Below are positions 3,746 to 29,235 of a stretch of 33,045 bases of DNA, in pieces. This stretch comes from Pseudomonas sp. ISL-84 (GTDB lineage Bacteria > Bacillota > Bacilli > Bacillales > Cytobacillaceae): the NCBI GenBank assembly GCA_018613035.1, contig JAGGRA010000083.1, positions 1 through 33,045 on the forward strand, in the 5' to 3' direction. A model generated the notes under the pieces. That model had not been told where the DNA came from, made no database searches, and saw only the letters and a program-made list of their open reading frames with translations. The first letter of the stretch is position 1. Each line of letters begins with the position of its first letter. Made by a program: the position numbers and the translations under genes.

Positions 3746-3990
3746 AGGCTCTGTTAAATTTGCCTGTTGATTTCCGCTGCAGGCACTCCCTTTCCGCGGG
3801 CGGTCCGGGAGCCTCCTCGTCGCTTTGCTCCTGCGGGGTCTCCCTTTGATCCGCACTCTCGCAGGACTTTGAATAAGCTTCCTCGAATTTACACCGCACG
3901 AAGGAAATGCGAATGCATTTTCGAGGATCTCGTGCCCTCCGCTCCAATCAACAGGGTGCTAAAAAACAACAATAAGCTTTAACAGAGCCT
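3746..3990. repeat. Dispersed inverted-repeat element, copy A
   Basis: Perfect 13-bp outer inverted repeats (AGGCTCTGTTAAA at 3746-3758, TTTAACAGAGCCT at 3978-3990) enclose a second perfect 10-bp pair (CCTGTTGATT at 3763-3772, AATCAACAGG at 3946-3955). Inside are a long stem (3880-3887 with 3920-3927) and a small hairpin AAATGC-GAAT-GCATTT (3905-3920). At 245 bp it has shorter flanks than copies C, D and F. It lies between the amidase start and the yfmL stop. No protein is credibly encoded. Confidence 0.85.
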
Positions 3991-3998
3991 TAAAAAAA

Positions 3999-4047
3999 GT
4001 ACCAGGTACCTATACCAGTTGGAGTGACTGGTATAGGTACCTGGTAC
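3999..4047. repeat. REP-like palindrome, copy 2
   Basis: Perfect 21-bp arms at 3999-4019 and 4027-4047 with a 7-base loop, built on GTACCAGGTACCTATACCAGT. It matches copy 1 at 1877-1925 almost base for base in the arms, with a different loop. It is wedged between the end of element A (3990) and the yfmL stop codon (4055). It could act as a 3' hairpin for yfmL, but it lacks a good U tract. Confidence 0.85.
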
Positions 4048-4054
4048 TGTGCTT

Positions 4055-5179
4055 TTAAACGATTTCACCGCCGCGCATAACCTTTTTCTCTGCGGTTTGG
4101 CCGAGTTCTTTGGTGAATTTTCTGAGTTCGCGTTCTTCTCTTTCGGTGACGAGAGAGATGACCGTTCCGCTGGCGCCAAATCTGCCTGTTCTGCCTGAAC
4201 GGTGGACGTATTGGTTAATATCTTTCGGGAAATCAAAATGAACAACATGGGTTACTCCCTTGATATCCAAGCCACGTGCTGCCACATCGGTTGCAATCAG
4301 CATATTAGTTTTGCCCGTCCGGAAATTTTTAATGGCTTTTTGCCGGTCAAATTTACTTAGGTCGCTGTGAAGTGTGCTGGAGGCAATATTTTTAAAATCA
4401 AGTTTCTCCGCCATCACAGTCAGATTTCCGATATCCTTCACAAACACCAAAGCCTTAATGCCTTCCAGCCTGGAAATCTTTTCGAGCATTTTAATTTTAT
4501 CCCTTGCTTCGGCAACAAAATAAATATGATCGACAGCTGCAGCCTGAATGGTTTCATCTTTTTCGACACGAATGACTTCAGCATCTGCTGTCAGTTCTTT
4601 TGCAATCTGCTCGATAACCGGCGGCAGGGTCGCTGAAAAAAGCAGAACCTGTCGTTCTTTCAGCGTCGATTTAACTATATTCTGGACCGCCTGTGCATGC
4701 TCGGGTACCAATAGCTGATCGCCTTCATCCAGCACAACCGTCTTAACCTCATGCATTTTCAGCTTCTTCTGCTTAATCAGCTCCAACACACGCCCAGGTG
4801 TACCCAATGCGATATGCGGATGCTTCTTTAATTTTTCAAGCTGCCTTTTCACATTGGCTCCTCCGATAAAAGAGGCCGCTTTAATGCCGCTTCCCTCCGC
4901 CCATTTTTGGACCTCCTGGAGGATTTGCATCACAAGCTCCTGGGAGGACGCTAAAATAACTGCCTGCACTGCCTGTTTTTCAGGATCAATTTTTTCAAGC
5001 ACCGGCAGCAAGTAAGCGAGTGTCTTGCCTGTTCCAGTTGGTGATTCTGCAATAATATCCTTTCCTTCCAAGGCAGCCGGGATCGCTTCTGTCTGAATCG
5101 TGGTCGGCTGGACAAATGCGGACTTTTTCCACACTTCCTGGATAAAAGGGTTCATATTTTCAATAATAGATTGTGTCAT
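4055..5179 (-). CDS. yfmL: DEAD-box RNA helicase YfmL
   Basis: 374 residues, matching the short YfmL helicases, with two RecA-like lobes and almost no C-terminal extension. Motif I is SPTGTGKT (46-53). Motif II reads DEGD (151-154) instead of DEAD, as in YfmL. Motif III is SAT (182-184), and motif VI HRSGRTGR is near residue 330. ATP-driven unwinding of RNA is expected; B. subtilis YfmL is linked to ribosome assembly at low temperature. AAAGGAG lies about 7 bases before the ATG. The short C-terminus ends at MRGGEIV, so no extra RNA-binding domain is present. It is monocistronic here, flanked by intergenic DNA on both sides. Confidence 0.9.
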   Translation of the reverse strand: MTQSIIENMNPFIQEVWKKSAFVQPTTIQTEAIPAALEGKDIIAESPTGTGKTLAYLLPVLEKIDPEKQAVQAVILASSQELVMQILQEVQKWAEGSGIKAASFIGGANVKRQLEKLKKHPHIALGTPGRVLELIKQKKLKMHEVKTVVLDEGDQLLVPEHAQAVQNIVKSTLKERQVLLFSATLPPVIEQIAKELTADAEVIRVEKDETIQAAAVDHIYFVAEARDKIKMLEKISRLEGIKALVFVKDIGNLTVMAEKLDFKNIASSTLHSDLSKFDRQKAIKNFRTGKTNMLIATDVAARGLDIKGVTHVVHFDFPKDINQYVHRSGRTGRFGASGTVISLVTEREERELRKFTKELGQTAEKKVMRGGEIV

Positions 5180-5314
5180 AGGTAACTCCTTTAAGCTTAA
5201 TTGCGTTATATCATATTTAATAATAGTATAGCCGAAAATCGGAAAAAATGAGTATCGGTAATGATACTAGCTTATAGGCAGGTAGATGTCCAGCAAATCA
5301 GCGTTCAAAACAGG

Positions 5315-5354
5315 AAAAGGCCCGAATCCCTAAGAAGGGATCCGTGCCTTTTTT
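5315..5354 (-). terminator. Terminator of the M6 protease gene
   Basis: AAAAGG...AATCCCT pairs with AGGGAT...CCTTTT in an interrupted hairpin just past the stop codon at 5362. There are T tracts on both strands. Confidence 0.7.
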
Positions 5355-5361
5355 ATAAACC

Positions 5362-7740
5362 TTATTTGTGAATCCATACAGCTCCAGCAGAGTTGTCCTT
5401 GGCTTCACCGATGACTTCAAACTTCAAACCGTGTTCAGGAACAATTCGTCCTGAATCAGGAATCAGGTCATTCTTGTATGTTTGTGAATCATCAAATATA
5501 GGGTTTCCTTTTAAACCCGCATAATTGTAATCACCGCGTGAAGGGGAGCTTACTTCCCAGGCAGGTGATTGATCAAGGGAGAACGCAGCATCCGCGATTT
5601 GATATCTCGTGCTTCCGATTATAGAAGGTTCACCATTTTTGTCACCAACGATGGCCTCAGGATGGGAATCGACTACTCCAAGGAATCCTTCTCCTGGGTG
5701 TTCGCCAACCCAGTTATCCGTAAAGCTATCATCTGCGTACCAAACAACTAAACCGGTATTGTATTTTACACCTCTTGAGGATGCTAATGCTGTATCAGAA
5801 CCTGCATGGTTTCTCCATTCTAAATAGTAGTGATTCTTTGCAAAGCTAATGCCGTTGGAAACAATGAATCCTTCAAGAGTCATTGGCGTCTCGCCTTCCG
5901 CATCATCAGAGAAAATTTCTTTTCCATCAGCTATCACTGAAATATTATCCATTGCAAATCCATCTAATGCCAGACCGCCATCTGTTACATATTCAAATGT
6001 AAGACTTACTTTGCTGCCTGCAAATTGGCTTAAATCGTATGATTGGTCTACCCATTGGCCTTTCGAAGATTCAGCGCGGGTATCTCCATCTGTATCTTCA
6101 TCACCAATTACATCAAGCTCAACTGGTTCGCCGTCAGCTGTCTTTGCAGTAACATACAGATAGTCATAATCGAACTCAATATCATAAAACATTTTTGCAT
6201 TAAATGTTGCTGTTGCTGCATCTGTTAAATCAATCTCAGGTGTTGTTAAAGCTGTGTGCAGGTCATCGCCTTTAGTGCTGTAGTAATATTTCTCGCCGAA
6301 AGCTGGCTTAATACCCTGCACTTCTTTTTCAGGAAGGTTTACTTTAACAATTCCCGGATTTTTAGATTTGGTGACACTTTGGTCAATGACAGTTGTTAGT
6401 CCTTTTTCATCAATATCACTATAATTCACTTCATTGATATTAGCCCAATTTCCGCCCATTAGCTTTTGGAAGTATTCCTTATTTTGCGGGGAGAAGCTTG
6501 TAGGCTCCGTTCCTGCAATATTTCCGTTCCAGCTGCCGCCGCTCATGACAGACCAGGAAGCAATCGGCTCACCATGTCCAGAATAGATTGTATCGTACTC
6601 ATCCGGCAAACCTAAATCATGGCCAAATTCGTGGGCAAATACGCCAACAGCTCCATCTTCAGGCTGGATTGTGTAATCAAAGGCGCCCATTTTTCCGTCC
6701 CAATAATCAACCTTGGCAGTTGTATTCGGAACTGCAAACACTCCGTCAAGTGTCCAGCGGTGAGACCATATGGCATCGTCACCAATCACTCCGCCTCCAG
6801 CTTCCTGTCCTGTACCAGCATGGATAATCATCAGGTGGTCCACTAAACCGTCTGGTTCATTGAAGTTACCATCTCCATCTAAATCATATAGATCATATAC
6901 ATCATATTCAGAAAGGTCCATTCCTGCATTAACCGCAGCCTTTAGAGCCTCTTTGACCAAATCCCTCGGTCCTTTTGGAGCCAAATTATCATGTCCTCCG
7001 TCCGGATTATCATCGCCATACTCTTTTGCCGTACCAGGGACTGTAAGCCAGTCTGAAACCGTTCCATCCACAGTATAGCTTCCGCCTGACTGCTCTTCAT
7101 AGAACTGTTTGAAGGTCTTAACTTTGTCGCCGTTGAAAAGCTTAAACTCTTTATCTCCGAACATAAGCTGTTCATAATGCTCGCGGCTGAAGTCATCAGC
7201 ATACATATAGCCTTCTTCCTGCTCTACATTGTTGTGTTTAAGGTCTTCGAACTCTGTCAGTAGAACAAGTACCTTGTCTGTTCTTACTCCACCTTTATAA
7301 GTGTCCTCTTTGGCAGTTGCTACTTTTACACCTGATTTTCCATCTTTAAAGCTATCATGGCCTTTGTTAAGCTTTTTTGATAACTCTTCTTTTTGCTTGG
7401 TTAGAAAATCTTTTGCTTTTTTATCAAACTCATCCTGCTTATTGTCTTTTTCAGTTTTGCCTGGTTTTTCACCCTGCTTTTCTTTTATATAAGCTTTAAC
7501 CGCCTTTTTAACCTCTTTTTGAGAAGCGTCTTTGGCAATTACCCCTCTCTCTTTTAATGCTTTACCCAATCTGTCCTCATCCACTATATTTAAGTCGATT
7601 GGAGCAGACAGTTCTTCTGCTGATACTTGTGAAGGGGCTGCTGTAGTTCCTGCAAAAGATCCAGCAAATAAAGCAGCAGCCATCATCGTGCTGGCTGTAA
7701 TTGAAGATAAAACCTTAAACGGTCTATTCTTATTACTCAT
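5362..7740 (-). CDS. inhA: Secreted M6 metalloprotease, immune inhibitor A type
   Basis: 792 residues from the ATG at 7740, chosen because AGGGAGG lies 7 bases upstream and the signal peptide then starts properly. A longer frame to 7797 has no ribosome site. A Lys/Arg-rich n-region and an Ala-rich hydrophobic core (about 8-33) are followed by a likely cleavage near VSAEE (about 39-43). Residues ~50-150 are a charged propeptide. The zinc site is [11 protein letters not shown] (H370, E371, H374), the gluzincin/metzincin-like M6 signature. An acidic calcium-loop-like [12 protein letters not shown] lies at about 286-297. The C-terminal half has a MAM/jelly-roll-like segment. InhA enzymes digest host defence peptides and matrix proteins and also process secreted proteins. 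A 12-bp inverted repeat precedes the gene. Confidence 0.92.
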
Positions 7741-7798
7741 TCTTGTAGCCTCCCTATTTCTTCGCTTTTCAAAATTTCTGAACATTGCGAGATTCATT

Positions 7799-7860
7799 CT
7801 ATCAAACTATCCAAACTTTTTTAATAGTCCGATAATACCTTTATACTTATAGTTTGATAG
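7799..7860. promoter_or_regulatory. Perfect 12-bp inverted repeat upstream of inhA
   Basis: CTATCAAACTAT (7799-7810) and ATAGTTTGATAG (7849-7860) are perfect inverted repeats 38 bp apart, 59-120 bp before the inhA start. They may be paired operator half-sites enclosing the promoter, or a leader hairpin. They do not match a regulator site I can name with confidence. Confidence 0.5.
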
Positions 7861-7937
7861 GGTAGGTTACAGGTAATTCCTCTCATTCTATTTATAGAAA
7901 ATTACAAAGATAGGAATTTATATCTATTTGAGCAAGA

Positions 7938-7972
7938 TAAAAAAAGAGCAGCGGTAATTCCCGGTGCTCTTC
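7938..7972 (-). terminator. Terminator of hemAT
   Basis: On the minus strand GAGCACCGG pairs with CCGCTGCTC (one mismatch), followed by T7, 10 bp past the hemAT stop. Confidence 0.8.
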
Positions 7973-7981
7973 TCCATATAA

Positions 7982-9301
7982 TTAATGTCCTCTATTCCCG
8001 CCTTCTGCTTTCTCTTTTAACTCGTTCGCCAGCAGCGAAAGGCTTTCGGTTGTATGGTTGACTTCCTGGATGGATTGGACGATACTGTCGAGGTCTGATT
8101 TGTTGCGGCCGAACATGTCCAGGTATTGTTCCATCTCCATTTTCACGGTCAGGAGGCCGCTTTTAACTTGCTGGATTTGTTTTTGTGATTCTTTAGTGGA
8201 CAGGTTCATTGAATCCATCGTATTCACCAGCTTGCTGATCTGATTATCACTTTTTTCGATTTGTGTTTTAATATGGCTGCTCATTTTTTTGGAGTTTTCG
8301 GCCAGCTTCCTTACCTCTGTGGCGACGACCGCAAAGCCCCTGCCTTCATCTCCTGCGCGTGCTGCTTCGATGGAAGCATTAAGGGCGAGCAGATTTGTCT
8401 GGTCGGCAATGTCCTCAATGCCTTTTGTCATCGTAATAATCTGTTCGGAAATCCCTTTTAATGCTTCAATTCCGCTGATTGATGTATTGACATCCTCAAG
8501 GACTTTATTAAATGCAGTGACCATTTCGTCCATTTGCGATTGATTAAGGTTTGTCAGGTTAAGCAGGTTTTTGCTGCTTTTTTGCGTTGTTTCCGTTTCG
8601 CTGCGGATTTGGTCGGCCCTTAGGCTTGTTTCATTAATGGATGCTTCCGTTTGCTGTACAGAGGCTGCGACCTCCTGGCTGATAGAATTCAATTCTTTTT
8701 GCAACTGGGTATTTGATTCATTCAGTTCATTCAGCTGGTTCATTCTGGCCTGAAGATAGGTTTCTACTACAAGCTGTGAATCTAAATTGGTTATGTGAGT
8801 AAGTGCCAGAAGCGCATTTGTCAGCTTTTCCGGGTCCTGGTGCAATTCAGCCACAATCTTTGGCAGCAGCAGCGTTTGAATGGCAGAGTATGTAGCCAGG
8901 AACCACTCAACTGGAAGGCCTGCGCCGTTATGAGTATTGCCGATTCGGGTGCGCATTTTAAAGTATTCTTCATCAAGATCTCCGCCTAATAAACTTTGGA
9001 AATAGCGGACAAAAACGTTATAAAGTCTTTCCCTGCTTGTATTGTTTTCAGCAACTCTTTTTAATGGCGATTGCTTGTAGAGATGATCCAAGACCAGCTC
9101 CAGCATTTCATCAAGCAGGGGCGAGATGATTGGTTTCATTTCCTTTAACGTCTCAAGATTCTTTCTCGAAAAGCCCATATACCACAATCGTTCAGAAATC
9201 GTTTGCTCATCTGCCCCAACAGACTCTTCCAACCTGGGAAAATTCATTTTCGGCTGAAAAGATGAAGCAGTGGAATTTTTCTTTTTTAACTGAAATAACA
9301 T
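7982..9301 (-). CDS. hemAT: Haem-based aerotaxis transducer HemAT (globin-coupled MCP)
   Basis: 439 residues (B. subtilis HemAT has 432). Residues ~30-195 are a globin-coupled sensor with proximal haem ligand H124 in [12 protein letters not shown]. There are no membrane segments, so it is a soluble receptor. Residues ~205-430 form the methyl-accepting coiled coil, with the conserved hairpin tip [20 protein letters not shown] that contacts CheA/CheW. It should bind O2 at the haem and steer swimming through the chemotaxis system. The start at 9301 puts GGAGGG 8 bases upstream; earlier in-frame ATGs at 9307 and 9337 are too close to that site or lack one. It is transcribed alone, with a promoter at 9356-9384 and its own terminator. 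Confidence 0.93.
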
Positions 9302-9355
9302 AGTCATGTCCCTCCGGCAAACAGCCAATTTGTACAATATTTGTATATATTATGT

Positions 9356-9384
9356 ATAATAAATAGCCAAATGGCAACTATCAA
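9356..9384 (-). promoter_or_regulatory. SigA-type promoter of hemAT
   Basis: On the minus strand TTGATA (9384-9379) and TATTAT (9361-9356) are separated by exactly 17 bases. The -10 ends about 55 bases upstream of the start codon. No sigma-D (TAAA...GCCGATAT) motif is evident, although chemotaxis receptors often use it. Confidence 0.6.
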
Positions 9385-9435
9385 CTCTCTCTTCTATCTT
9401 CTTATCGGGTCAATGGGCCTAAATGTGAATAGAGG

Positions 9436-9477
9436 CTGACTCAAAAGGTCGGTTAAGTGACGACCCTTTTGAGTCAG
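9436..9477. repeat. Long hairpin, ACTCAAAAGGTCG type
   Basis: CTGACTCAAAAGGTCG (9436-9451) pairs with 9461-9477 with one bulged C, followed by TTTTT on plus. It has terminator form, but no plus-strand gene reads into it. It lies between the hemAT promoter and repeat element B, so it looks like part of a repeat assemblage. Confidence 0.6.
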
Positions 9478-9545
9478 TTTTTATTCTAAGGACAATTTTC
9501 TTCTTTTTCTTACCTTAATGTATTTGCTGATCTTCATTCTTGCAC

Positions 9546-9740
9546 CCTGTTGATTGGAGCGGAAGGGGCGAGATCCTCGAAAATGCATTCGCATTTCCTT
9601 CGTGCGGTGTTAACTCGTAGATGCATAATCAACGTCCTGCGGGAGAAGCGAGTCAACGGGAGACCCCGCAGGTGCGAATGCACCGAGGAGGCTCCCGGAC
9701 CGCCCGCGTTCGCTGAGTCCCTGGAGCGGAAATCAACAGG
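9546..9740. repeat. Dispersed inverted-repeat element, copy B (reverse orientation)
   Basis: Bounded by a perfect 10-bp inverted repeat (CCTGTTGATT at 9546-9555, AATCAACAGG at 9731-9740). The core runs opposite to copies A, D, E and F. It keeps the small hairpin AAATGC-GAAT-GCATTT on the minus strand and the CCTCGA/TCGAGG stem side. Open frames through it, such as 9550-9924 plus, are translated repeat. It separates hemAT from the downstream kinase gene, so the 9302-9818 gap holds promoter, hairpin, element B and terminator. Confidence 0.85.
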
Positions 9741-9765
9741 CCAATTTTATAGAGCTATTGTCTCG

Positions 9766-9812
9766 AAAAAGAGGGTGTCCCAAAAGCTATACTTTTGGGA
9801 CACCCTCTTTTT
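9766..9812. terminator. Perfect 21-bp-arm terminator of the histidine kinase gene
   Basis: AAAAAGAGGGTGTCCCAAAAG (9766-9786, 21 bases written as read) pairs perfectly with 9792-9812 around a 5-base loop, with poly-T in both directions. It lies 7 bp past the kinase stop at 9819. The stem is much longer than a terminator needs. Confidence 0.85.
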
Positions 9813-9818
9813 TTGTTT

Positions 9819-11060: not shown

Positions 11061-11176
11061 AAAAAAGCTCCTCGGTTAACTCTATTAAAATGATTCCAAT
11101 AGCATTATTATAAACGGTTGAACCCATCATTGTATATTTTTCTTCCTTATAAGGTGTTTTTCGCTCCTAAATCGGA

Positions 11177-11208
11177 TTTAAAAACCGGCCTGCGAAATGC
11201 AAACCGGC
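11177..11208 (-). terminator. Terminator of the alcohol dehydrogenase gene
   Basis: On the minus strand GCCGGTTTGC pairs with GCAGGCCGGT (using G-U pairs) around ATTTC, followed by TTTT. It is about 65 bp past the stop. Confidence 0.6.
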
Positions 11209-11271
11209 TCACGTGATGATGATTAAATTTTTAAAGCTAAATATGATCAAAAATCGGCCGAGACCGCGGAC

Positions 11272-12677: not shown

Positions 12678-13943
12678 ATGAAGAAAAAAAGAGTAATTGG
12701 GTCAGCAGTACTAAGTGTGGCAATGGGGCTTTCTGTATTTGCGTCTGGAGCTTTCGGCCAGCAGGTTGAGAGCAACGAGACATACCGGGTTATGATTCAG
12801 GGACCGGGCGCTGAACAAGCGAAGGCTAAAGCAAACTATGGCGTGCGCTGGGATTTCGGGAAGGAAGGTTTTACTACAACAGTAAACGCAAAACAGTATC
12901 AAGCCTTGTTGAAAAATAAAAATTTGGAGATTGATAGAGTTGACCAGATAAGCCTTGCACCTGTCAGCAAGGAATCTGCCGCCAAGCCGGGAGCCGAGGC
13001 TGCAGCTGCTCCGAATGATCGCACTCCTTGGGGAATTGAGGCTATTTATAATGACAGTGCGATTCAAAGCACTTCAGGCGGAAGCGGAATAAAAGTGGCG
13101 GTGCTTGACACAGGCGTAAACACAGCACATACTGACCTGGCTGGACAGGCAGAACAATGTAAGGATTTTACTCAAAGAAAATCTCCTTTAATTGATGGAA
13201 GCTGCGGGGATAAAAATGGTCATGGCACACATGTTGCCGGAACTGTCCTTGCACATGGCGGCGCTAGCGGACAAGGTGTATACGGTGTTGCACCGGACGC
13301 AGACTTATGGGCATATAAAGTGTTGAACGACAGGGGTTCAGGCTATTCCGATGATATTGCCGGTGCCATCCAGCATGCGGCAGATCAAGCAGTCAGCACG
13401 GGTTCAAAAGTTGTCATATCCATGTCTCTGGGTGCAAGCTCAAAGAGTTCATTGATCGCTGATGCGGTTGACTATGCATACGGAAAAGGAGTTCTAGTTG
13501 TGGCTGCAGCTGGAAACGATGGCCCTTCAGATAACACAATCGGCTATCCTGGCGCATTGGTAAACGCGGTTGCAGTTGCTGCACTGGAAGACGTTCAGGA
13601 GAATGGCTCATACCGTGTAGCCGACTTTTCTTCTCGCGGAAACCCTGCAACTGACGGCGACTATGTCATCCAGGAACGCGATGTTGAGCTTTCCGCACCA
13701 GGCAGAGCGATTGAATCTACTTGGTTCGATGGCACTTACAACACAATCAGCGGTACTTCCATGGCTACTCCGCACGTATCAGGATTGGCTGCAAAGATTT
13801 GGGCTGAAAACTCTTCATTGACTCATGCCGGTCTTCGCGCAGAGCTTCAAACCCGCTCCAAGCAATATGACATCCTTGGCGGAACAGGAGCTGCAGCTGG
13901 TGATGACTATGCGTCAGGCTTTGGTTTCCCTCGAGTGAAATAA
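12678..13943 (+). CDS. Secreted subtilisin-like serine protease (S8), paralogue 1
   Basis: 421 residues with signal peptide (MKKKR then a hydrophobic run to about residue 27). An I9-type propeptide spans ~35-95 (YRVMIQGP...). The mature S8 domain has D144 (AVLDTG), H182 (GHGTHVAGT) and S361 (GTSMATPHVSG). N280 (AAAGN) supplies the oxyanion hole. C161 and C176 flank a short loop and could form a disulfide, unusual among Bacillus subtilisins and shared with the second copy at 23849. GAGAGGAG lies 8 bases before the ATG. It carries its own promoter, leader hairpin and terminator. It should be a secreted endopeptidase, maturing by self-cleavage. Confidence 0.92.
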   Translation: MKKKRVIGSAVLSVAMGLSVFASGAFGQQVESNETYRVMIQGPGAEQAKAKANYGVRWDFGKEGFTTTVNAKQYQALLKNKNLEIDRVDQISLAPVSKESAAKPGAEAAAAPNDRTPWGIEAIYNDSAIQSTSGGSGIKVAVLDTGVNTAHTDLAGQAEQCKDFTQRKSPLIDGSCGDKNGHGTHVAGTVLAHGGASGQGVYGVAPDADLWAYKVLNDRGSGYSDDIAGAIQHAADQAVSTGSKVVISMSLGASSKSSLIADAVDYAYGKGVLVVAAAGNDGPSDNTIGYPGALVNAVAVAALEDVQENGSYRVADFSSRGNPATDGDYVIQERDVELSAPGRAIESTWFDGTYNTISGTSMATPHVSGLAAKIWAENSSLTHAGLRAELQTRSKQYDILGGTGAAAGDDYASGFGFPRVK

Positions 13944-13998: not shown

Positions 13999-14100
13999 GT
14001 TGATAATATATTGGCGCAAGTTGATGATATATTTTGGAAGCTGACGATTTATGGCCAAAGTTGATGATATATTCGATCAGTTGACGATAAATTTCTAAAA
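13999..14100. repeat. Five-unit 20-bp tandem repeat
   Basis: Units begin at 13999, 14020, 14040, 14060 and 14080, each 20-21 bp. They share GTTGAYGATAWATT and end in a variable 6-7-base tail. The period is close to two helical turns, so the motif falls on one face of the DNA. It lies downstream of the S8 terminator and before element C, between convergent genes. Confidence 0.8.
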
Positions 14101-14107
14101 GATTGTT

Positions 14108-14387
14108 GGCTTTAAATACATTTTGTAAAAAACTTTGATAAATAAGGTTGATTGATTGGAGCGCAAGGTGCGAGCTCCTCGAAAATGCTATCGCATTTCC
14201 TTCGTGCGGTGTTTATTCAAGGAAGCTTATTCAAAGTCCAGCGGGAGGAGTGGGACAGGTGAGACCCCACAGGTGCTTGCACCGAGGATGCTCACCGCCC
14301 GCCCCGCGGAAGCTTGAGCATCCTGGAGCGGAAATCAACCACTCCTCACAACTAGTTTAAATAGCAACAAAGTTTGCGAAAACAGCC
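14108..14387. repeat. Dispersed inverted-repeat element, copy C (reverse core)
   Basis: The inner pair is GGTTGATT (14146-14153) and AATCAACC (14333-14340). The right flank ends ACTAGTTT...AGCAACAAAG then TTTGCGAAAACAGCC at 14387, nearly the same as the right flank of copy D although the core is inverted. The small hairpin has loop GATA (minus strand) in place of GAAT with unchanged arms. With the tandem repeat it fills the 13944-14411 gap. Confidence 0.8.
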
Positions 14388-20374: not shown

Positions 20375-20658
20375 GGCTCTTTTCGTATAGATTTGTTGTT
20401 TTTGGACTATAAAGCTTGCCCGTTGATTTCCGCTCCAGTCACGCAGCGAACCCGCGGGGAGGAACGGGAGCCTCCTCGGCGTTTCACGCCTGTGGGGTCT
20501 CCCGCTCCCTCTCTTCCCGCAGGACATTGAATAGGCTTCCTCGAATAAGCACCGCACGAAGAAAATGCGAATGCATTTTCGAGGATCAAGTGCCTTCCAC
20601 TCCAATCAACTCAGTAATTAAAACTAGTTTGTAAGCAACAAACTTTGCGAAAACAGCC
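20375..20658. repeat. Dispersed inverted-repeat element, copy D (full-length)
   Basis: 284 bp. Outer ends GGCTCTTTTCG (20375-20385) and CGAAAACAGCC (20648-20658) are inverted repeats with one mismatch. Inner ends are GTTGATT (20422-20428) and AATCAAC (20604-20610). The right flank has ACTAGTTT and AGCAACAAACTTTGCGAAAACAGCC-like sequence shared with copy C. The core hairpin AAATGC-GAAT-GCATTT and its outer stem are intact. It fills most of the 20266-20704 gap; 20266-20374 shows nothing assignable. Confidence 0.85.
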
Positions 20659-20700: not shown

Positions 20701-20704
20701 CTGT

Positions 20705-21070: not shown

Positions 21071-21164
21071 TTGAAACCTCCATAAAAATGTTATGAATAT
21101 GGAATATTCAACATCCTTATTCAATTACCTTTTTAACATGAGGAATCAGTTAAAACTAGTATAT

Positions 21165-21345
21165 TCATTTCCGCTCCAAAAGCTCAGCGAACCGCATGCT
21201 TTAAAGACGCTCCTCAAGCAAAAAGGCCTGCAGGGTCTCTCCTTGACTCGCTACTCACGCAGGACACTGAATAGATTTGACACAGCAAGAAGGAAATGCG
21301 AATGCATTTTCGGGGATCGCGCCCCTTCCGCTCCAGCCAACAGGG
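21165..21345. repeat. Dispersed inverted-repeat element, copy E (degenerate)
   Basis: The core keeps TTTCCGCTCC at the left and CCGCTCCAGCCAACAGG at the right, the AAATGC-GAAT-GCATTT hairpin and the CAGGGTCTC/CGCAGGACACTGAATAG blocks. The GTTGATT end has decayed to TTCATTT, and the middle is rearranged. An ACTAGT just to the left (21156-21161) recalls the C/D flank. It occupies most of the 21071-21413 gap. Confidence 0.7.
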
Positions 21346-21382
21346 TACAAATATCATAATCTGGCTTTTACAGAACTAAATG

Positions 21383-21410
21383 CAAAAAGCCAGCGTATTA
21401 GCTGGCTTTG
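21383..21410 (-). terminator. Terminator of the CoA-disulfide reductase gene
   Basis: On the minus strand AAAGCCAGC pairs with GCTGGCTTTTTG around a TAATAC loop, just past the stop at 21414. Confidence 0.85.
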
Positions 21411-21413
21411 TTA

Positions 21414-22745: not shown

Positions 22746-22875
22746 AGGGATCTCTCCTAACGTCTTATTCCATGACCGATTTTTATTAAGCTTTTTCAAC
22801 ATAGCTTTAGTTAAAAGGTGAAAATTATGCACTGCTGCAAACAGAGACTATACCCTTATAGCTATCCTATTTTGA

Positions 22876-23661
22876 TCATTTTAAAACGTTTTTCAGGACT
22901 TCTACTGTCACCTTTCTGACAATGTTTTCGATCATTTCTTCAGACAGCCCCATTGTTTCAGCCTTCGCTTCGCTGCTTGGAGCTGGGATTCCGCCTGTGT
23001 GGATGCCCATTTTTCCACGGATGGAAATGAGCTCTGCGATTTGCCCAGTGCTTAATTCATTTGATTGTTGAATAATATGGTTGGAATATAGGAGCATAAG
23101 CGCATAATGCTCGAGTGACTCCATCCTGAAATAGGCTTCTGTAATATCACGGCCCCAAGTTAATGCACCGTGGTTGGCAAGCAGAACCGCATTGTAGTCC
23201 TTGCAATATGGCGCTATGGAATCAGGCACTTCCTGTGTGCCCGGAGTAGCATACGGTGCAACCGGAACTTTACCAAGCAAAACGATGGCTTCAGGTGAAA
23301 CGGGCTTATCAAGGCTTATGCCGGCAATGGCAAACGATGTTGCCACAGGCGGATGGGCATGGACAACTGCTGTCGCTGCCGGATTTTCCTGATAAACTCT
23401 TAGATGCATTTTCACTTCTGACGAAGGTTTATGTGTACCTTCAAGAATATTGCCGGATAAATCCATTTTCACCATCATGTCAGGCGTCATAAAACCCTTG
23501 CTAACTCCAGTTGGCGTTGTCCAGATTTCATTAACGCCTGTTTTGATTGAGATATTTCCGTCATTAGCCGCTACAAAATTTTTATTGTACACTCTTCTGC
23601 CCATTTCACAGATAAGTTCCTTTGCTTCATGATCACTTATATATGTATATGGTTCAGCCAT
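22876..23661 (-). CDS. Class II sugar-phosphate aldolase (fuculose-phosphate aldolase family), DrdA-like
   Basis: 261 residues. Zn ligands H101 and H103 (VHAHPP) and H164 (ANHG), with catalytic-type E82 (PSSEVKMH), match class II aldolases of the AraD/FucA family. The start at 23661 gives AAGGAG a 9-base spacing; the in-frame ATG at 23670 abuts the site. In the family these split a ketose 1-phosphate into DHAP and an aldehyde. With an MtnK-like kinase and MtnA-like isomerase 2-5 kb upstream on the same strand, the best reading is DrdA of 5-deoxyribose salvage (5-deoxyribulose-1-P to DHAP + acetaldehyde) or the methylthioribulose-1-P DHAP shunt. A MtnB-type dehydratase is less likely because the sequence is FucA-like. 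Confidence 0.82.
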   Translation of the reverse strand: MAEPYTYISDHEAKELICEMGRRVYNKNFVAANDGNISIKTGVNEIWTTPTGVSKGFMTPDMMVKMDLSGNILEGTHKPSSEVKMHLRVYQENPAATAVVHAHPPVATSFAIAGISLDKPVSPEAIVLLGKVPVAPYATPGTQEVPDSIAPYCKDYNAVLLANHGALTWGRDITEAYFRMESLEHYALMLLYSNHIIQQSNELSTGQIAELISIRGKMGIHTGGIPAPSSEAKAETMGLSEEMIENIVRKVTVEVLKNVLK

Positions 23662-23698
23662 GGCTGCCATCTCCTTTCCTATTCACATCCTCTCCTAT

Positions 23699-23728
23699 TG
23701 TATATTCAAAATCAATTGGCTTCAGCAA
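23699..23728 (-). promoter_or_regulatory. Candidate promoter of the aldolase gene
   Basis: On the minus strand TTGCTG (23728-23723) and TATACA (23704-23699) are 18 bases apart, 37 bp before the start codon. Confidence 0.45.
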
Positions 23729-23764
23729 TTTTTATAACTTTTCACCTTTCGCTAAAATCTGATC

Positions 23765-23778
23765 ATTTCCGCGGAAAT
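23765..23778. promoter_or_regulatory. 14-bp perfect palindrome upstream of the aldolase promoter
   Basis: ATTTCCGCGGAAAT is a perfect palindrome about 37 bp upstream of the proposed -35 and about 20 bp from the protease terminator. Its position suits an activator or distal operator site. Confidence 0.4.
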
Positions 23779-23795
23779 ATTTTCAAATTTCGCAG

Positions 23796-23835
23796 TGAAA
23801 AAAACCGCCTGATCATTGGACCAGACGGTTTCGGG
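23796..23835 (-). terminator. Terminator of S8 protease 2
   Basis: On the minus strand AAACCGTCTG pairs with CAGGCGGTTT (one G-U) and is followed by T8, 13 bp past the stop at 23849. Confidence 0.85.
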
Positions 23836-23848
23836 GGTTACCTATTTA

Positions 23849-25126
23849 TTATCTTACGCGAGGGTATCCGAAGCCTGATGCGTAGTCATCGCCAGTTGCT
23901 GCTCCGTAACCGCCTTTAATATCATACTGCTTTGCACGGTTTCTAAGCTCTGTGCGAAGCTGTGTATGGCTCATATTAGGATTGGAAGACCAAATTTTAG
24001 CCGCAAGTCCTGCTACGTGAGGAGTAGCCATGGATGTGCCGCTGATTGTGTTGTAGCCGCCGTTATACCAAGTGGATTCAATGCTCGCTCCCGGTGCAGA
24101 TACTTCCACATCACGCTCTTGGATATAATAGTCACCATCCGTGTTCGGGTTGCCTCGGGATGAGAAGTTGGCTACACGGTATGTACCGTTTTGCTGAACA
24201 TTTTCAAGGGCCGCAACGGCAATAGCATTTGTTAAAGCACCCGGGTAACCAATCGTATTAGCGCTATAACCGGAGTTTCCTGCTGCAGCAACAATAAGGA
24301 CACCTTTGCTGTATGCATAATCAACTGCGCTCGCAATTAATGAGTCTTTGCCGCTGGAACCAAGTGACATGTTAATCACTACTTTTGAACCCGTGCGGAC
24401 CGCTTCGTCTGCAACATGACGGATTGCTCCTGCGATATCATCGGAATATCCAGAACCGTTATCGCCTAAAACTTTGTACGCCCATAACTTTGCCTGGGGC
24501 GCTACGCCATAAACGCCAAGGCCGTCATAGCCTCCATGCGCCAAAACGGTACCCGCTACATGCGTTCCGTGACCCTGGCGGTCAGTACAGGTTCCGTTCA
24601 CCATGGAAGAATATGATTGTGTAAAATCTTTACATTGCTCAGCAGAGCCTTCCAAGTCAATGTGATTTGTATATACGCCTGTATCAAGAACAGCCACTTT
24701 AATTCCGCTTCCGCCTGATGTACTGCTAATGTAACTGTTATTATAAATAGATTCGATTCCCCATGGAGTCTGGTCGCTAGGATATCCTGCTGCTTCTAAT
24801 GAGATTGAGTCATTCTTGGATGAAGAGGCTTCCGTTCTGGCTGTATCGAGTGTAACCTCGCTTACTTTTTCGATCGTTATGTTCTTGTTCTTTAAAAGTG
24901 CCTGGTACTGTTTCGAATTAACCTCTGCAGTAAGGCCGTCTTTTCCAAAATCCCAACGTTCTTCGATCTGCGCTTTTACATTTGCCCGCTCAGCTGCAGG
25001 TCCCTGGATAAGAACCCGATAAGATTCATTTGCCTCTGGCCCCTTCGCAAATGCTCCTGCTGTAAAAACGGATAAACCCATGGTCATACTTAGAAGTGCT
25101 GCTCCTAATGCCCTTTTTTTCTTCAT
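23849..25126 (-). CDS. Secreted subtilisin-like serine protease (S8), paralogue 2
   Basis: 425 residues, same layout as the 12678 gene: signal peptide (MKKKRALGAALLS...), I9-type propeptide (YRVLIQGP...), and an S8 domain with D148, H186 and S365. The C165/C180 pair is conserved at the same relative place. Most of the mature domain is identical or similar to paralogue 1, whereas the propeptide-to-mature linker (about 95-118) differs in length and composition. AAAGGAG lies 7 bases before the ATG. It has its own promoter and terminator, so it is an independent unit even though it sits between the isomerase and aldolase genes of one pathway. It points opposite to paralogue 1. Confidence 0.92.
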   Translation of the reverse strand: MKKKRALGAALLSMTMGLSVFTAGAFAKGPEANESYRVLIQGPAAERANVKAQIEERWDFGKDGLTAEVNSKQYQALLKNKNITIEKVSEVTLDTARTEASSSKNDSISLEAAGYPSDQTPWGIESIYNNSYISSTSGGSGIKVAVLDTGVYTNHIDLEGSAEQCKDFTQSYSSMVNGTCTDRQGHGTHVAGTVLAHGGYDGLGVYGVAPQAKLWAYKVLGDNGSGYSDDIAGAIRHVADEAVRTGSKVVINMSLGSSGKDSLIASAVDYAYSKGVLIVAAAGNSGYSANTIGYPGALTNAIAVAALENVQQNGTYRVANFSSRGNPNTDGDYYIQERDVEVSAPGASIESTWYNGGYNTISGTSMATPHVAGLAAKIWSSNPNMSHTQLRTELRNRAKQYDIKGGYGAATGDDYASGFGYPRVR

Positions 25127-25180
25127 CCTTTTTCTCCTTTCAAATTCTTTATTTTTTCTGTCGGTTCTTGTTGCTTTTCA

Positions 25181-25210
25181 AGTATATTTAAAACATTCTG
25201 ACTTTAACAA
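25181..25210 (-). promoter_or_regulatory. Candidate SigA promoter of S8 protease 2
   Basis: On the minus strand TTGTTA (25210-25205) and TATACT (25186-25181) are 18 bases apart, 54 bp before the start codon. The 25211-25467 stretch upstream is AT-rich and shows nothing further. Confidence 0.55.
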
Positions 25211-25467
25211 TGCGCTAAATTATGTAATTTACAAACTCTGGAATCAGGCATAGATTCATAGCTTCTAAAAAAGTATCAGGCCTTTTGATGGATTTACAAA
25301 TGTTTTCCACTACATCCATATTATTTAATTCATAATTTTTACAAAAATAATAATATTTTACAGTAATTTATAGTCTGAAAGTTTTATATGAAGAGTCAAA
25401 TTACACTCATTTTTTTTGGTTGCAGCAGGGATATTTTCCTAGTGGAACGCTTTAAAGGTTTAAAACA

Positions 25468-25752
25468 AAGTCTCTTTTCAAATAGGTTGCTGTTTTTTCC
25501 TATGAATTCAGCCCGTTGATTTCCGCTACGGGCACTTGCTGTCCGCGGGGGGAACGGGTGCCTCCTCGACGCCCTGCGTCTGTGGGGTCTCCCGCTTCCT
25601 CTCCTCCCGCAGGACATTGAATAAACTTCCTCGAATAGACATCACACGAAGGAAATGCGGCAGCATTTTCGAGGATCAAATGCCCACAGCGAAGATCAAC
25701 TCAGCAAATTAAATTGAGTTATTGAAAAACAACAAACTTTACTAAAACACCC
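25468..25752. repeat. Dispersed inverted-repeat element, copy F (full-length)
   Basis: 285 bp, the same size as copy D. The left flank AAGTCTCTTTTC...GGTTGCTGTTTTTT mirrors the right flank AACAACAAACTTTACTAAAACACCC. Core ends are GTTGATTTCCGCT on the left and GATCAAC on the right. The small hairpin keeps AAATGC/GCATTT arms, but its loop is GGCA instead of GAAT. It lies between protease 2 and the isomerase gene and fills much of the 25127-25794 gap. Confidence 0.82.
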
Positions 25753-25757
25753 ACATC

Positions 25758-25790
25758 AAAAAAGCCTCCTGCCATTTGGCTCGGAGGCTT
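25758..25790 (-). terminator. Terminator of the kinase-isomerase operon
   Basis: On the minus strand AAGCCTCC pairs with GGAGGCTT around a loop, followed by TTTT, 5 bp past the stop at 25795. It separates the isomerase transcript from the downstream protease and aldolase genes. Confidence 0.85.
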
Positions 25791-25794
25791 TCAT

Positions 25795-26859
25795 CTATTT
25801 TTTGAACATTTTAGGCAGGCTTTCATTAAACGGGGCATATGCAATGCCGTTTTCTGTGATAATGCCTGTGATCAATTCGTTATCAGTCACATCAAATGCT
25901 GGATTGTACGTCTGCACACCCTCTGGTGCCATTGGCTTTTCATACCATTTAGAGGTGATTTCCTCGGATGGCCTTAGCTCGATATGGATGTCCTCGCCCG
26001 TTTTGCATGTGAGATCCACTGTTGAAAGGGGTGCACAAACATAGAATGGGATTTGATAATGCTTAGCCAGAATCGCAACTCCCGATGTCCCGATTTTATT
26101 GGCTGCATCACCATTTGCTGCTACCCGGTCACAGCCAACGAGCACGGCCTGAATCTTGCCTTCTTTCATCACAATGCTGGCCATATTATCGCAAATCAGC
26201 GTGACATCAACACCTGCTTCTTTCAGCTCCCAGGCTGTCAGACGGGCACCTTGGAGAAGCGGACGTGTTTCATCCGCATACACTTTAAAATCATACCCTT
26301 GTTCCTGACCAAGATAGATTGGGGCCAGAGCAGTCCCATATTTTGCGGTCGCGATGGTTCCCGCATTGCAGTGTGTGAGGATACCCCAGCCGGGCTCAAG
26401 GACTGAAAGAGCATGTTTCCCAATTGATTCGCATACCTCTTCATCTTCAGCACGAATGTTTTCAGCTTCCTCTTTCAAAGCAGCTTTCACTTCAGCTGCA
26501 CTCATGCCTTCTTCCTTTTGAAAGCGGGCTTCCATACGGTCAAGCGCCCAAAACAGATTAACGGCAGTGGGCCTTGAAGAGGCAAGGTATTCCTTGGCTT
26601 TTTTAAAGTCGCTATAAAGCTCTTCATAGCTCTCTGCACTGGATTTCTTTGTGCCTAAATACACTCCATAAGCAGCGGCAATGCCAATCGCCGGAGCGCC
26701 GCGAACCTTTAAATGATAGATTGCTTCCCATATATCCTTTAATTCTTTTAAATGCAGAAAGTTCTTTTCGTTTGGAAGAACTGTTTGGTCTAAAAGAATA
26801 AGAGCATCGTTTTCATCGTCCAATCTGACAGACTGGATCACATCCACTGGTTTTCCCAT
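25795..26859 (-). CDS. mtnA: S-methyl-5-thioribose-1-phosphate isomerase family (MtnA / DrdI-like)
   Basis: 354 residues (B. subtilis MtnA has 353). Family motifs RGAPAIG (53-59), catalytic C164 in THCNAG and D244 in GCDRVAANGD are all present. It converts an aldose-1-phosphate to the ketose-1-phosphate: methylthioribose-1-P in methionine salvage, or 5-deoxyribose-1-P in Drd salvage. AGAGGAGG precedes two adjacent ATGs; 26859 gives a 7-base spacing and 26862 a 4-base spacing. The open frame to 27021 is antisense-free overlap with the kinase gene and is not used. It starts 13 bp after the kinase stop, so the two form an operon. The nearby FucA-type aldolase makes the Drd or DHAP-shunt role a serious alternative to classical mtnA. 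Confidence 0.88.
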   Translation of the reverse strand: MGKPVDVIQSVRLDDENDALILLDQTVLPNEKNFLHLKELKDIWEAIYHLKVRGAPAIGIAAAYGVYLGTKKSSAESYEELYSDFKKAKEYLASSRPTAVNLFWALDRMEARFQKEEGMSAAEVKAALKEEAENIRAEDEEVCESIGKHALSVLEPGWGILTHCNAGTIATAKYGTALAPIYLGQEQGYDFKVYADETRPLLQGARLTAWELKEAGVDVTLICDNMASIVMKEGKIQAVLVGCDRVAANGDAANKIGTSGVAILAKHYQIPFYVCAPLSTVDLTCKTGEDIHIELRPSEEITSKWYEKPMAPEGVQTYNPAFDVTDNELITGIITENGIAYAPFNESLPKMFKK

Positions 26860-26872
26860 CATGCTGCCTCCT

Positions 26873-28096
26873 CTAGAATCTTTTTTCACAGCTTTTAAGA
26901 GCGCCTGCAAAGTCTGCGCCTGTTTTGAAAGATTCCCTATCCATAATAAACATTTTGCCGGCTGCCAGACAAATCTTTTCTGCAGCAGCTCTGCTGTTTG
27001 GGTCTTCAATCGATGTGACATCTTTTACAGACGCCAATCCGATAATTCTTCTGCAGAGCTCAAGCCCGGCTACAGCCGCTGTGTCGCGAAGAACTGTATC
27101 CAGGTAGTATTCCTTAAAGCCATCATATCTGGCTGTTTGTTCGGTTGCTTTTTCATCCCATGCCTTCATAAATTTATCCTTAAAAAGATCTACGATATCT
27201 TCAATCGTATTTTGGAGATACGCCTCTTGATCGGCTCTTAAATCTTCATCTGCAATCGTATATTTTGCGTTAACATAAGCGAAAATCAGGTTGGCAAGGA
27301 CGTTTCCGATATCGTAGCCGGCAGGTCCATAAAAGGCGAATTCCGGATCGATGATTTTAGTAGAATCTTCTTTTATAAAAATAGAGCCGGTGTGCAGGTC
27401 GCCATGAAGGAGAGACTGGGCATTGGACATAAACTCAAACTTAAGCTTTACTGTCTCAAGCTGCAGCTTCGGATCTGACCAGATTTCCTGTTCTGCATAC
27501 GCTCTAGTTCCCTCGAACACTTCATTTCTAGGACAATTATAAAATGGCTCTGTAAATACAAGGTCCTCAGAAATTTCACATAATTCAGGGTTGGTGAATT
27601 TTTGGACAAGCGCCTTCTTTTCCTTATGTCCCATCACTACGTCCGAGGTAAGCAATAATGTATTCACCAGGAACGTTGAAATATGGTCAGCAAACAGCGG
27701 AAACTTTCTATGCTGCATCAATGCGGTTCTCATGATCATATGATCGGACAAGTCCTCCATTGCCGTACAGTTCATGATCGGATCATAATGATACACCTTT
27801 GGCACGAACCCTGGCGCCAGCTTGTTTTGTCTCTCCAAAATCTCAAATTCAATGCGGTTGCGGTCAGGAGACAGCTTAAATTCATCAGAAATTCTGGCTA
27901 CAGGGCCGGCCTGCTTTATGATAAGAGACTTATTATTTTTATGATCAATCAGTTTAAATACATAGTTTAAGTTGCCATCCCCAATTTCCCTGCACTCCAA
28001 TTCTGCATCCGGTGCAAAGAAATCCAGCCTTGTTTTTGCGTACTCGATGGCTTCCTGTTCATTCATCGTAAAATAGGCAGATGTGAAAACCGTCAT
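26873..28096 (-). CDS. mtnK: Methylthioribose kinase family protein (MtnK / DrdK-like)
   Basis: 407 residues with an aminoglycoside-phosphotransferase/choline-kinase fold. ATP-site lysine K61 is in LIIKQAG, the catalytic loop is HGDLHTGS (231-238) and the metal-binding DPEF is at 250-253. It phosphorylates the 1-OH of methylthioribose or 5-deoxyribose. The start at 28096 follows GAGGAGG by 9 bases. It is the first gene of the kinase-isomerase pair. In B. subtilis mtnKA is under an S-box (SAM) riboswitch, but the 151-bp leader here is too short and lacks that fold after the STAS terminator is discounted, so methionine control is not evident. Sequence alone does not separate MtnK from DrdK; the symbol is by family. 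Confidence 0.85.
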   Translation of the reverse strand: MTVFTSAYFTMNEQEAIEYAKTRLDFFAPDAELECREIGDGNLNYVFKLIDHKNNKSLIIKQAGPVARISDEFKLSPDRNRIEFEILERQNKLAPGFVPKVYHYDPIMNCTAMEDLSDHMIMRTALMQHRKFPLFADHISTFLVNTLLLTSDVVMGHKEKKALVQKFTNPELCEISEDLVFTEPFYNCPRNEVFEGTRAYAEQEIWSDPKLQLETVKLKFEFMSNAQSLLHGDLHTGSIFIKEDSTKIIDPEFAFYGPAGYDIGNVLANLIFAYVNAKYTIADEDLRADQEAYLQNTIEDIVDLFKDKFMKAWDEKATEQTARYDGFKEYYLDTVLRDTAAVAGLELCRRIIGLASVKDVTSIEDPNSRAAAEKICLAAGKMFIMDRESFKTGADFAGALKSCEKRF

Positions 28097-28205
28097 GTTA
28101 AAAGCCCTCCTCAATTCCCATAAAATAATCTATGATTTCGTGTATTTTATATATTTTAAAATATCTAAATACTATCATGGGATGGGGGCTTCGACAATCT
28201 TTTTT

Positions 28206-28236
28206 TAATAGAAAAGAGCTGCCATGATAGCAGCTC
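28206..28236 (-). terminator. Terminator of the STAS-domain gene
   Basis: GAGCTGC (28216-28222) and GCAGCTC (28230-28236) form a perfect 7-bp stem with TTTT on the minus strand, 12 bp past the stop at 28248. Between it and the kinase start are only AT-rich bases, including the palindrome ATATTTTAAAATAT (28151-28164). Confidence 0.8.
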
Positions 28237-28247
28237 CGGTGTTTTTC

Positions 28248-29063
28248 TTATTTAATGCTCGTAATTGCCTGCTGTACGGTAGAGTAGACTTCAAGCGAGG
28301 AGAGGTCAATTCCCAGATTGACTGCGCTTTTCGCCAGGTCTGGGCGCACGCCTGTTGCAATTGTATTCACTCCTGTCAGGAGGAGGATGTTGCGGATATC
28401 AAAAATATGCTTGGCAATTTGAATGTCGATATTGACTGTGCCCGAAAAGTCGATGATGAGGGTTTCGATGCCCAATTGATTTACTTTCGGGACTGCTTTT
28501 TCAATAATGATTTGTGCCCGGTCATAGTCAATGTTCCCGATCAATGGCAATATCGCGATCCTATCCTGGATGGGCACAATGGTAGCGGAAAGTTCATTTA
28601 CCTGTAATTCTGTTTCTTTTAATCGTTTTTGTGTCTGGCGTTCGAAGGCAAATACAGTTTCATTGATGCTTATATCAAGCATATGGTTTACTTTCTTTAC
28701 AATGGTAATCGTCTCATCAGCCGTTAGCCCATAATCTGTACCGATTGTTTTTAGTCTATCAGTAAATACGATGCGGGTGTCTGGATAGCGGGTGACGATA
28801 TCTGAGATCTTTCCGCCTCTTGATGCCGCCCGTTCCCCGTTTCCTTTGCTCCATTCGACCAGGCCGTCAGGAACTTGATCTCCCTCATTCGCAATCATCT
28901 TTCCCAGAAACTTTATAAACTCAATATACATCGAAACAGCAGCGTCAAATTCTTGTTTTGGAATCTCAAAACCGAATCTGTCCACAATTTCTGCAACGAT
29001 TTCTTCAGATAATCCCTCCGCATTTTGAGTAAGATACGCTGAAACTTTTTGTATAGGCTCCAT
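28248..29063 (-). CDS. RsbR-type STAS-domain protein (stressosome component paralogue)
   Basis: 271 residues, the size of B. subtilis RsbRA-RD. The N-terminal ~150 residues are a helical, variable sensor region with no haem or flavin signature I can see. The C-terminal ~160-270 is a STAS domain: QDRIAILPLIGNID begins it, LIIDFSGT holds the region of the first RsbR phospho-threonine, and ATGVRPDLAKS holds that of the second. RsbR proteins form the stressosome with RsbS and RsbT and release RsbT to switch on sigma-B. No rsbS, rsbT or sigB is nearby, so this is a satellite paralogue. GAGGAG lies 12 bases before the ATG, a rather long spacing. Confidence 0.85.
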   Translation of the reverse strand: MEPIQKVSAYLTQNAEGLSEEIVAEIVDRFGFEIPKQEFDAAVSMYIEFIKFLGKMIANEGDQVPDGLVEWSKGNGERAASRGGKISDIVTRYPDTRIVFTDRLKTIGTDYGLTADETITIVKKVNHMLDISINETVFAFERQTQKRLKETELQVNELSATIVPIQDRIAILPLIGNIDYDRAQIIIEKAVPKVNQLGIETLIIDFSGTVNIDIQIAKHIFDIRNILLLTGVNTIATGVRPDLAKSAVNLGIDLSSLEVYSTVQQAITSIK

Positions 29064-29160
29064 CTGTAAGTATATCTCCTCTCTTATGTCATGCTTCGAT
29101 TATAACCTACTATCCCTTTAAATTGGCAGATTGGGGAAATAAATAGGAACATTTTACTTG

Positions 29161-29235
29161 GGCTGTTTTCGCAATTTTTTTTGTATAAACGATGGACTTT
29201 TCCTTTCAGCAGGTACTTGCTTTCCGTTAGTTACC
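29161..29235. repeat. Remnant of the dispersed inverted-repeat element (copy G)
   Basis: GGCTGTTTTCGCAA at 29161-29174 is identical over 14 bases to the reverse complement of copy D's outer right end. Beyond it, GGTACTTGCTTTCCG at 29211-29225 resembles core start sequence. The rest of the element is missing or unrecognisable. The 29236-29354 stretch holds GC-rich sequence I cannot assign. Confidence 0.5.

Follow-up and report, generated by a model that had tools for sequence, protein, structure and literature searches.

The window analyzed here, a stretch of 33,045 bases, is one whole contig (C84) of the 5.11-Mb, 100-contig genome of Pseudomonas sp. ISL-84, a member of the Bacillales. It contains copies of a dispersed repeat, and these repeats are miniature inverted-repeat transposable elements (MITEs), all of which are united by a core of ~125 nt bordered by GTTGATT...AATCAAC that forms a covarying hairpin. 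Our explanation, which we regard as probable when taken as a whole, is that the MITEs make 8-bp target duplications, probably depend on an ISL3 transposase supplied in trans, and carry a hairpin cassette that likely folds as RNA in the transcripts of their neighbors. In this model, MITEs that encode no transposase would insert between genes and duplicate 8 bp of the target, an ISL3-family enzyme would move them in trans, and the hairpin would fold as RNA when neighboring genes are transcribed through the element, the working strand being the complement of the strand written out in an earlier sequence-only reading of the window (hereafter, the written strand). The folded RNA could be cut at this place or could hold back the polymerase, with the outcome that the element would do little harm to the neighboring genes. 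The action of the hairpin is the least certain part of the explanation, and the RNA role is a lead on which the evidence is mixed.

Copies were identified with a profile based on cores of both short and long form, which was run on a 2,033,045-base sample (~40% of the genome), with the sampled DNA read backwards as the negative control. This search resulted in 155 copies of ~120–450 bp and none in the control, which extrapolates to ~390 copies in the whole genome. Several very short copies containing runs of N were left out of use. The 15-mer at the start of the core had 159 exact matches in the genome and 248 with at most one mismatch, compared with 2 for the pattern written backwards. The genome comparison that the sequence-only reading had proposed for one copy in the window (copy D, below) gave 366 first-look candidates, 40 of which were scored; a dozen are 91–98% identical to it over ~270–300 bp. 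Several contigs of the assembly start or stop inside a copy, and the copies thus explain breaks in the assembly.

The copies fall into two end classes with one common interior, a distinction that the first reading had not drawn: type-1 ends read GGCTCTGTTAAA..TTTAACAGAGCC and type-2 ends read GGCTNTTTTCG..CGAAAACAGCC, and the part common to the copies is the core rather than the ends. When 148 copies were examined with flanks of 400 nt, both ends were present in 79 (56 type-2 and 23 type-1), and a single end was recognizable in 30. Both classes are flanked by AT-rich 8-bp target duplications, with 34 of the 79 two-ended copies agreeing at 7–8 of 8 positions. By class, such flanks were found for 21 of 56 type-2 copies (mean 1.7, maximum 7 in 1,000 shuffles) and 13 of 23 type-1 copies (mean 0.8, maximum 4 in 1,000 shuffles); a 9-bp frame gave none and a 7-bp frame gave 7 (type-2) and 3 (type-1). 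Outside of the window, contig C17 holds a type-1 copy of 242 bp whose site is empty in the related genomes G300 and G308, with flanks that overlap by exactly 8 bases; the two relatives are 91–94% identical to the host in this region, and the junction letters were read in G308 only. The terminal inverted repeats, the target duplications, and this empty site bear out the suggestion that the elements are MITE-like, and we consider their identity as MITEs firm. Two possibilities that had been raised against it do not apply, as copies of one class share their ends and the interior, being a covarying hairpin, is not a fragment of a decayed gene. Elements of the REP/REPIN type moved by a Y1 transposase were also considered; REP/REPINs produce no target duplication and lack DDE-type terminal repeats, and they are ruled out by the 8-bp duplications and terminal repeats.

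In the window, the core profile identified copies A–F and returned no matches in the reversed sequence. Copy A (3747–3989, plus strand; E-value 8e-17) is a 243-bp type-1 MITE with GGCTCTGTTAAA..TTTAACAGAGCC ends, a long core at ~3766–3952, and flanks that agree at 7 of 8 positions. Copy B (9537–9757, limits approximate, minus strand), recognized from the profile and the letters, consists of the core and a decayed type-1 end that reads AGCTCTATAAAATTGGCC on the minus strand. Copy C (14086–14387, minus strand) is a type-2 MITE found by the profile that reads GGCTGTTTTCGCAAACTTTGTTG from 14387 downward and, as judged by eye, extends to ~14086 with a decayed lower end, CAACAATCTTTTAGAAATTTATC. Copy D (20375–20658, plus strand) is a 284-bp type-2 MITE in which both ends were found and the flanks agree at 6 of 8 positions; among the copies in the window, it has the closest relatives in the genome. 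Copy E (21151–21360, limits approximate, plus strand; E-value 4e-5) is decayed, with a core at ~21166–21340. Copy F (25470–25752, plus strand) is a 283-bp type-2 MITE with substitutions in its ends and flanks that agree at 6 of 8 positions. A seventh site, G (29161–29235, plus strand), has a match to a type-2 end and ~20 nt of core-like sequence, and it is kept as a probable remnant because the profile did not report it.

The sequence-only reading had described six copies and a remnant that share ordered blocks. All of the blocks claimed for copies A–F were found in order and in place, and the count stands for these six, with G as a probable remnant only. The outer ends that had been assigned jointly to copies C, D, and F are of one class (GGCTNTTTTCG..CGAAAACAGCC), with the qualification that the lower end of C is decayed and the ends of F carry substitutions. 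The density that had been called high is 1 copy per 5.5 kb in the window versus 1 per 13.1 kb in the 2.03-Mb sample, which is dense but not exceptional. The window indeed encodes no transposase, based on gene names judged by eye.

Several of these copies are specific to the host lineage. G300 lacks copies C, D, and F at the orthologous sites, and D and F are also absent in G308 as judged from gap size. Copy A occurs in G300 in truncated form at its orthologous site, copy E is present in both relatives, and near window positions 23,742 and 28,206–28,224, where the host has no copy, the relatives have either a copy or a gap of copy size. Such differences bear on the proposal that the repeat is a fixed host regulatory element, such as a terminator or insulator, that spread by duplication or recombination without transposition. 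Genes were called by a longest-open reading frame (ORF) rule, and none of the 155 copies lies inside a called gene, as a regulatory repeat would predict; this result is limited to longer genes because ORFs shorter than 200 codons that overlapped a copy were removed beforehand. Terminators also point into the ends more often than into random intergenic sequence (15 of 79 left ends and 18 of 79 right ends, compared with 6.7% per strand in 814 windows), an excess for which closeness to gene ends may account in part. The target duplications, the empty site with its 8-bp overlap, the lineage-specific copies, and the strong differences in copy number among genomes of one genus all argue against this proposal, which we consider hardly credible.

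We infer mobilization by ISL3-family insertion sequences (ISs) because their ends resemble those of the MITEs. Ends were found for 13 of 39 ISL3 loci, in a search that itself required matching 8-bp flanks, and are mostly similar to GGCTCTATAATATTTGTTGGGG and GGTTCTAAGTCAAATGTTGGGG. Their layout, GGCTCT..TTTGTTG, is like that of the MITE ends, and they are bordered by AT-rich 8-bp flank repeats, a length that fits the MITE duplications; unlike the MITEs, these ISs encode a transposase of ~400–450 codons. ISL3 elements make 8-bp duplications. The ISL3 domain is encoded in 8 of 36 genomes of the host's genus and in 112 of 299 genomes of the order, and no ISL3 transposase with MITE ends was found in the host or its genus; a broader search of ISL3 loci returned similar ends only. 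From these likenesses, an ISL3 transposase is the likely mover.

A match to GGGTCTGTTAA in loci L163 and L166 was set aside, as it falls within a broken transposase gene. Four pairs of ends that are more than 500 bp apart have matching flanks (L367 on contig C18, L255, L239, and a 3,090-bp pair on contig C7). Three of these were rejected as autonomous partners: L367 encloses what appears by eye to be an IS110-like gene and is likely a chance pair, L239 has no long frame between its ends, and L255 encloses a nucleotidyltransferase gene (PF06042). This last element, at L255:1501–2605, has type-2-like ends with flanks matching at 7 of 8 positions, and it is possibly a cargo-carrying relative. Type-2-ended elements also hold quite different interiors (L228, L231, L235, L237, and L248), some with inverted repeats as judged by eye. 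MITEs with the same ends but without the core occur, and the core is therefore not needed for movement. Copies such as D may have a nested origin, with a type-1 element inside a type-2 element, a suggestion drawn from likeness of letters.

Having established the copies as mobile, we turn to the core they share. The 133 core hits, some from overlapping loci, were reduced to 68 of 118–136 nt and then to 37 dereplicated sequences, which were aligned over 138 columns. The core is one long imperfect hairpin, for which RNAalifold predicted 38 pairs, 23 with double (compensatory) changes. The fraction of paired cells is 92.6%, compared with 81.1 ± 0.6 in shuffles and 40–47 when partners were slid, and there are 159 double-changed cells, compared with 48 ± 6 and 22–34, respectively. 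Folding of six cores with RNA energies gave z-scores from −2.6 to −7.4. A search of Rfam 15 returned no match in the window at the gathering score, and locus L034 gave only chance-level matches.

The two strands of the hairpin differ. The complement of the written strand is more stable in 105 of 109 cores, and in the outer stem it has 4 unpaired cells of 222, compared with 15 of 222 on the written strand. With one nearly constant U-G pair excluded, A-C cells, which are G-U on the complement, number 38 versus 19 G-U cells. The copies are also oriented with respect to their neighbors. A gene is present on each side of 146 copies, and these neighbors are co-directional in 92 cases, divergent in 28, and convergent in 26; in the 92 tandem cases the complement is co-directional with the genes in 67 and the written strand in 25 (p = 1.4e-5, with copies taken as independent). 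This ratio is 58:18 for leading-strand pairs and 9:7 for lagging-strand pairs. Leading versus lagging orientation is 14:12 for convergent pairs and 10:18 for divergent pairs, and sense to the nearer gene is 13:13 with corrected core extents. A pure replication-strand cause for the orientation is not supported by the convergent pairs, which show no strand preference. Retention of pairs on the complement, together with its co-direction with the neighboring genes, is a hint of an RNA role.

A number of observations weigh against the explanation we favor. No end is recognizable in 39 of the 148 copies, no transposase was found between such ends in the 2.03-Mb sample or the other loci examined, and the host lacks the ISL3 domain. 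An autonomous partner with matching ends is, however, not a strict requirement for a MITE. The ISL3 and MITE ends agree at no more than 12 of 16 bases, and matching 8-bp flanks were themselves a criterion of the search that yielded the ISL3 ends. Regarding the RNA, the complement is also more stable without G-U pairs (108 of 109 cores) and with DNA energies (106 of 109); because the difference persists under both treatments, the greater stability of the complement is no pointer to RNA. When the nearly constant U-G pair is included, there are 53 G-U cells versus 38 A-C cells. Finally, in the leaders of IS1182-type elements described below, the sense strand is the other one, opposite to the proposed working strand, in 25 of 25 cases.

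Some of this evidence fits a hairpin that works as DNA, in which a single-stranded or cruciform form would be seen by the transposase or a host factor and pairing would be kept for that purpose. Two cores fold well with DNA energies (z-scores of −6.0 and −6.5), and the strand difference is retained with these energies. A core segment that reads CGCTTTCC in 62 of 133 hits reads AGCGAAC in 28, an apparent local flip as in palindromic DNA, and in L190 and L205 the cores collapse between short direct repeats to GTTGATTTCCGCTCCAATCAAC, again as palindromic DNA does. Against a role as DNA, the nearly constant U-G pair (34 of 37 sequences) and the wobble changes would count as mismatches, the core is missing from some MITEs that have the same ends, and the lack of strand preference at convergent pairs argues against a pure replication effect. 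We regard the DNA hairpin as a less likely alternative that nonetheless deserves serious attention, and a folded RNA remains our preferred reading of the core.

The distribution of the core was surveyed in 299 Bacillales genomes from 117 genera. The motif at the start of the core was found in 105 genomes and 45 genera, with at least five matches in 57 genomes by table count; some of the single matches are due to chance because the backwards motif matched once in each of 7 genomes. The type-2 end, allowing one mismatch, was found in 96 genomes and 43 genera, and backwards in none of those listed. Counts of ends and cores are dissociated, with values of 221/0, 123/0, and 68/0 (ends/cores) in G030, G028, and G134 and of 0/58, 0/55, and 0/47 in G214, G137, and G175. 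We also compared 60 loci, some without a full core, from six other genomes; likeness stops sharply at the core borders and the arms vary: they are type-1 in G139 and G261, type-2-like in G131 and G255, and of other kinds in G175. Searches of plasmids and phages with end fragments returned nothing specific, and copy D had no match in phages. That a covarying hairpin is common to different element types is firm as an observation.

The sharp GTTGATT/AATCAAC borders, the arms that differ by genome, and the separate distributions of core and type-2 ends would be expected if the core were mobile in its own right and reached MITEs and IS leaders by a mechanism of its own, as would its two different positions in IS1182 leaders. 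Among 121 cores with distinct flanks, however, there is no duplication at the core's own borders (lengths 2–12), and no core-only empty site was seen, the clean empty site being that of a whole MITE. Independent mobility of the core therefore appears improbable to us.

A further structured unit, CTAGCCCCTCGAGGTCATAAG..CTTATGCTTGTCGGGGCTG, lies within the core at L239:1501–2334 and in L179–L181, L183, L186, and L188; L239 has three tandem copies of this unit, and there are two matches in the host sample. In L060:1060–3100, from another genome, two diverged cores are found at a transposase gene, and in one of these cores an insertion separates GAGGCCACTGAAAAA from TTTTTCAGTGGCCTC.

The core also occurs outside of MITEs. 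In Peribacillus plasmids, an IS1182-family element (family assigned by NCBIfam) carries the core between its left end and its transposase gene. Of 307 IS1182-type loci in genome records, we surveyed the best 80, 7 of which were too short upstream, and found the core in the transposase leader of 25, in each case in sense with the gene, with one further remnant; 6 of the 25 come from a single genome. With promoters judged by eye, the core takes one of two positions. In Peribacillus, Mesobacillus, Bacillus sp. OV166, and B. suaedaesalsae it follows the left-end hairpin and precedes the promoter; in Lysinibacillus, Sporosarcina, Lederbergia, Robertmurraya, and others it falls after promoter-like letters and before the ribosome-binding site. 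A second core, in inverse orientation, is found close to the 3′ end in five loci. The core is outside the IS1182 element in L286 and L287, and in L271 the inverse core belongs to a neighboring left end. In OV166, letters resembling decayed type-1 ends flank the core, the flank duplication is indistinct (5 of 8), and related IS1182 elements show a core-less form. IS1182 elements may thus have acquired the cassette when a type-1 MITE landed in the T-run behind the left-end IS hairpin. As a side observation, IS1182 elements of this group (L040–L044, L067, L068, and others) occupy terminator hairpins, such that the hairpin is found both before and after the element.

The presence of the core in 25 of 80 leaders, together with an additional inverse core toward the opposite end in five loci, could be taken to mean that the copies are internal-deletion derivatives of core-bearing IS1182 elements. 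We consider this very unlikely: IS1182 ends read CAGACTGTAGACAAA and their duplications are whole terminator hairpins, from which the MITE ends and 8-bp duplications differ, and the same subfamily lacks the core in 8 of 8 full-length copies read in the host's genus.

A hairpin module that spans genera with its pairing kept raises the question of whether mobile elements trade non-coding functional parts. The hairpin is present in elements with different ends and in IS1182 leaders, and the exchange of such parts therefore becomes testable. We tentatively suggest, as a possibility and not as the expected outcome, that the hairpin is a working RNA cassette exchanged among unrelated transposons, namely ISL3-type MITEs with their two end classes, elements with other arms in other genera, and IS1182 elements, which hold it in the transposase leader and in some cases also inverted at the opposite end. 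If so, the cassette would control or shield the expression of the element and its effect on neighbors, and it would constitute a transferable regulatory part across the Bacillales.

No description of this hairpin-cassette family was recognized in searches of the openly licensed PubMed Central literature. ERIC/IRU elements of enterobacteria are ~127 bp, similar to the core in size and palindromy, and no likeness in sequence is known or was sought; the core differs as a cassette found in several element types. ERIC/IRU is described as a high-copy intergenic imperfect palindrome found in 3′ parts of genes, with a proposed role in mRNA (PMC10969869). BOX and RUP of Streptococcus pneumoniae are described as short repeats of a MITE-like kind that lie between genes and have a folded interior; BOX has a modular build, with one boxB between different flanking modules in S. 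suis, RUP is proposed to insert near IS elements, and BOX and RUP are tied to ISSpn2 and IS630-Spn1 (PMC3049150). As described there, they resemble the hairpin MITEs as short folded intergenic repeats but differ in sequence, ends, and size, and the hairpin MITEs, unlike BOX and RUP, have ISL3-like ends, 8-bp duplications, and a core that also occurs in IS1182 leaders. The bcr1 repeat is 147–167 bp (PMC2267715), and a title in the references of that paper calls it specific to the B. cereus group; compared by description only, bcr1 and the hairpin MITEs are both mobile folded repeats of related bacteria. TIMEs are Tn3-derived miniature elements reported to form mosaics (PMC4133298); both they and the hairpin MITEs are non-autonomous, whereas the ends of TIMEs are Tn3-derived, and the opening of its abstract mentions no common hairpin cassette.

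Three neighboring features of the window are recorded here. A second repeat, the palindrome AGTACCAGGTACCTATACC..GGTATAGGTACCTGGTAC, is present at 1873–1925 and at 3995–4047, where it adjoins copy A; its arms were found 16 times in the 2.03-Mb sample and not in the reversed control, and it is possibly REP-like. At 14012–14091, beside copy C, 20-bp units (..GTTGATGATATA..) form a short tandem repeat. Two genes judged by eye to encode subtilisin-like proteases, at 12678–13943 (plus strand) and 23849–25126 (minus strand), are ~70–74% alike in three stretches.

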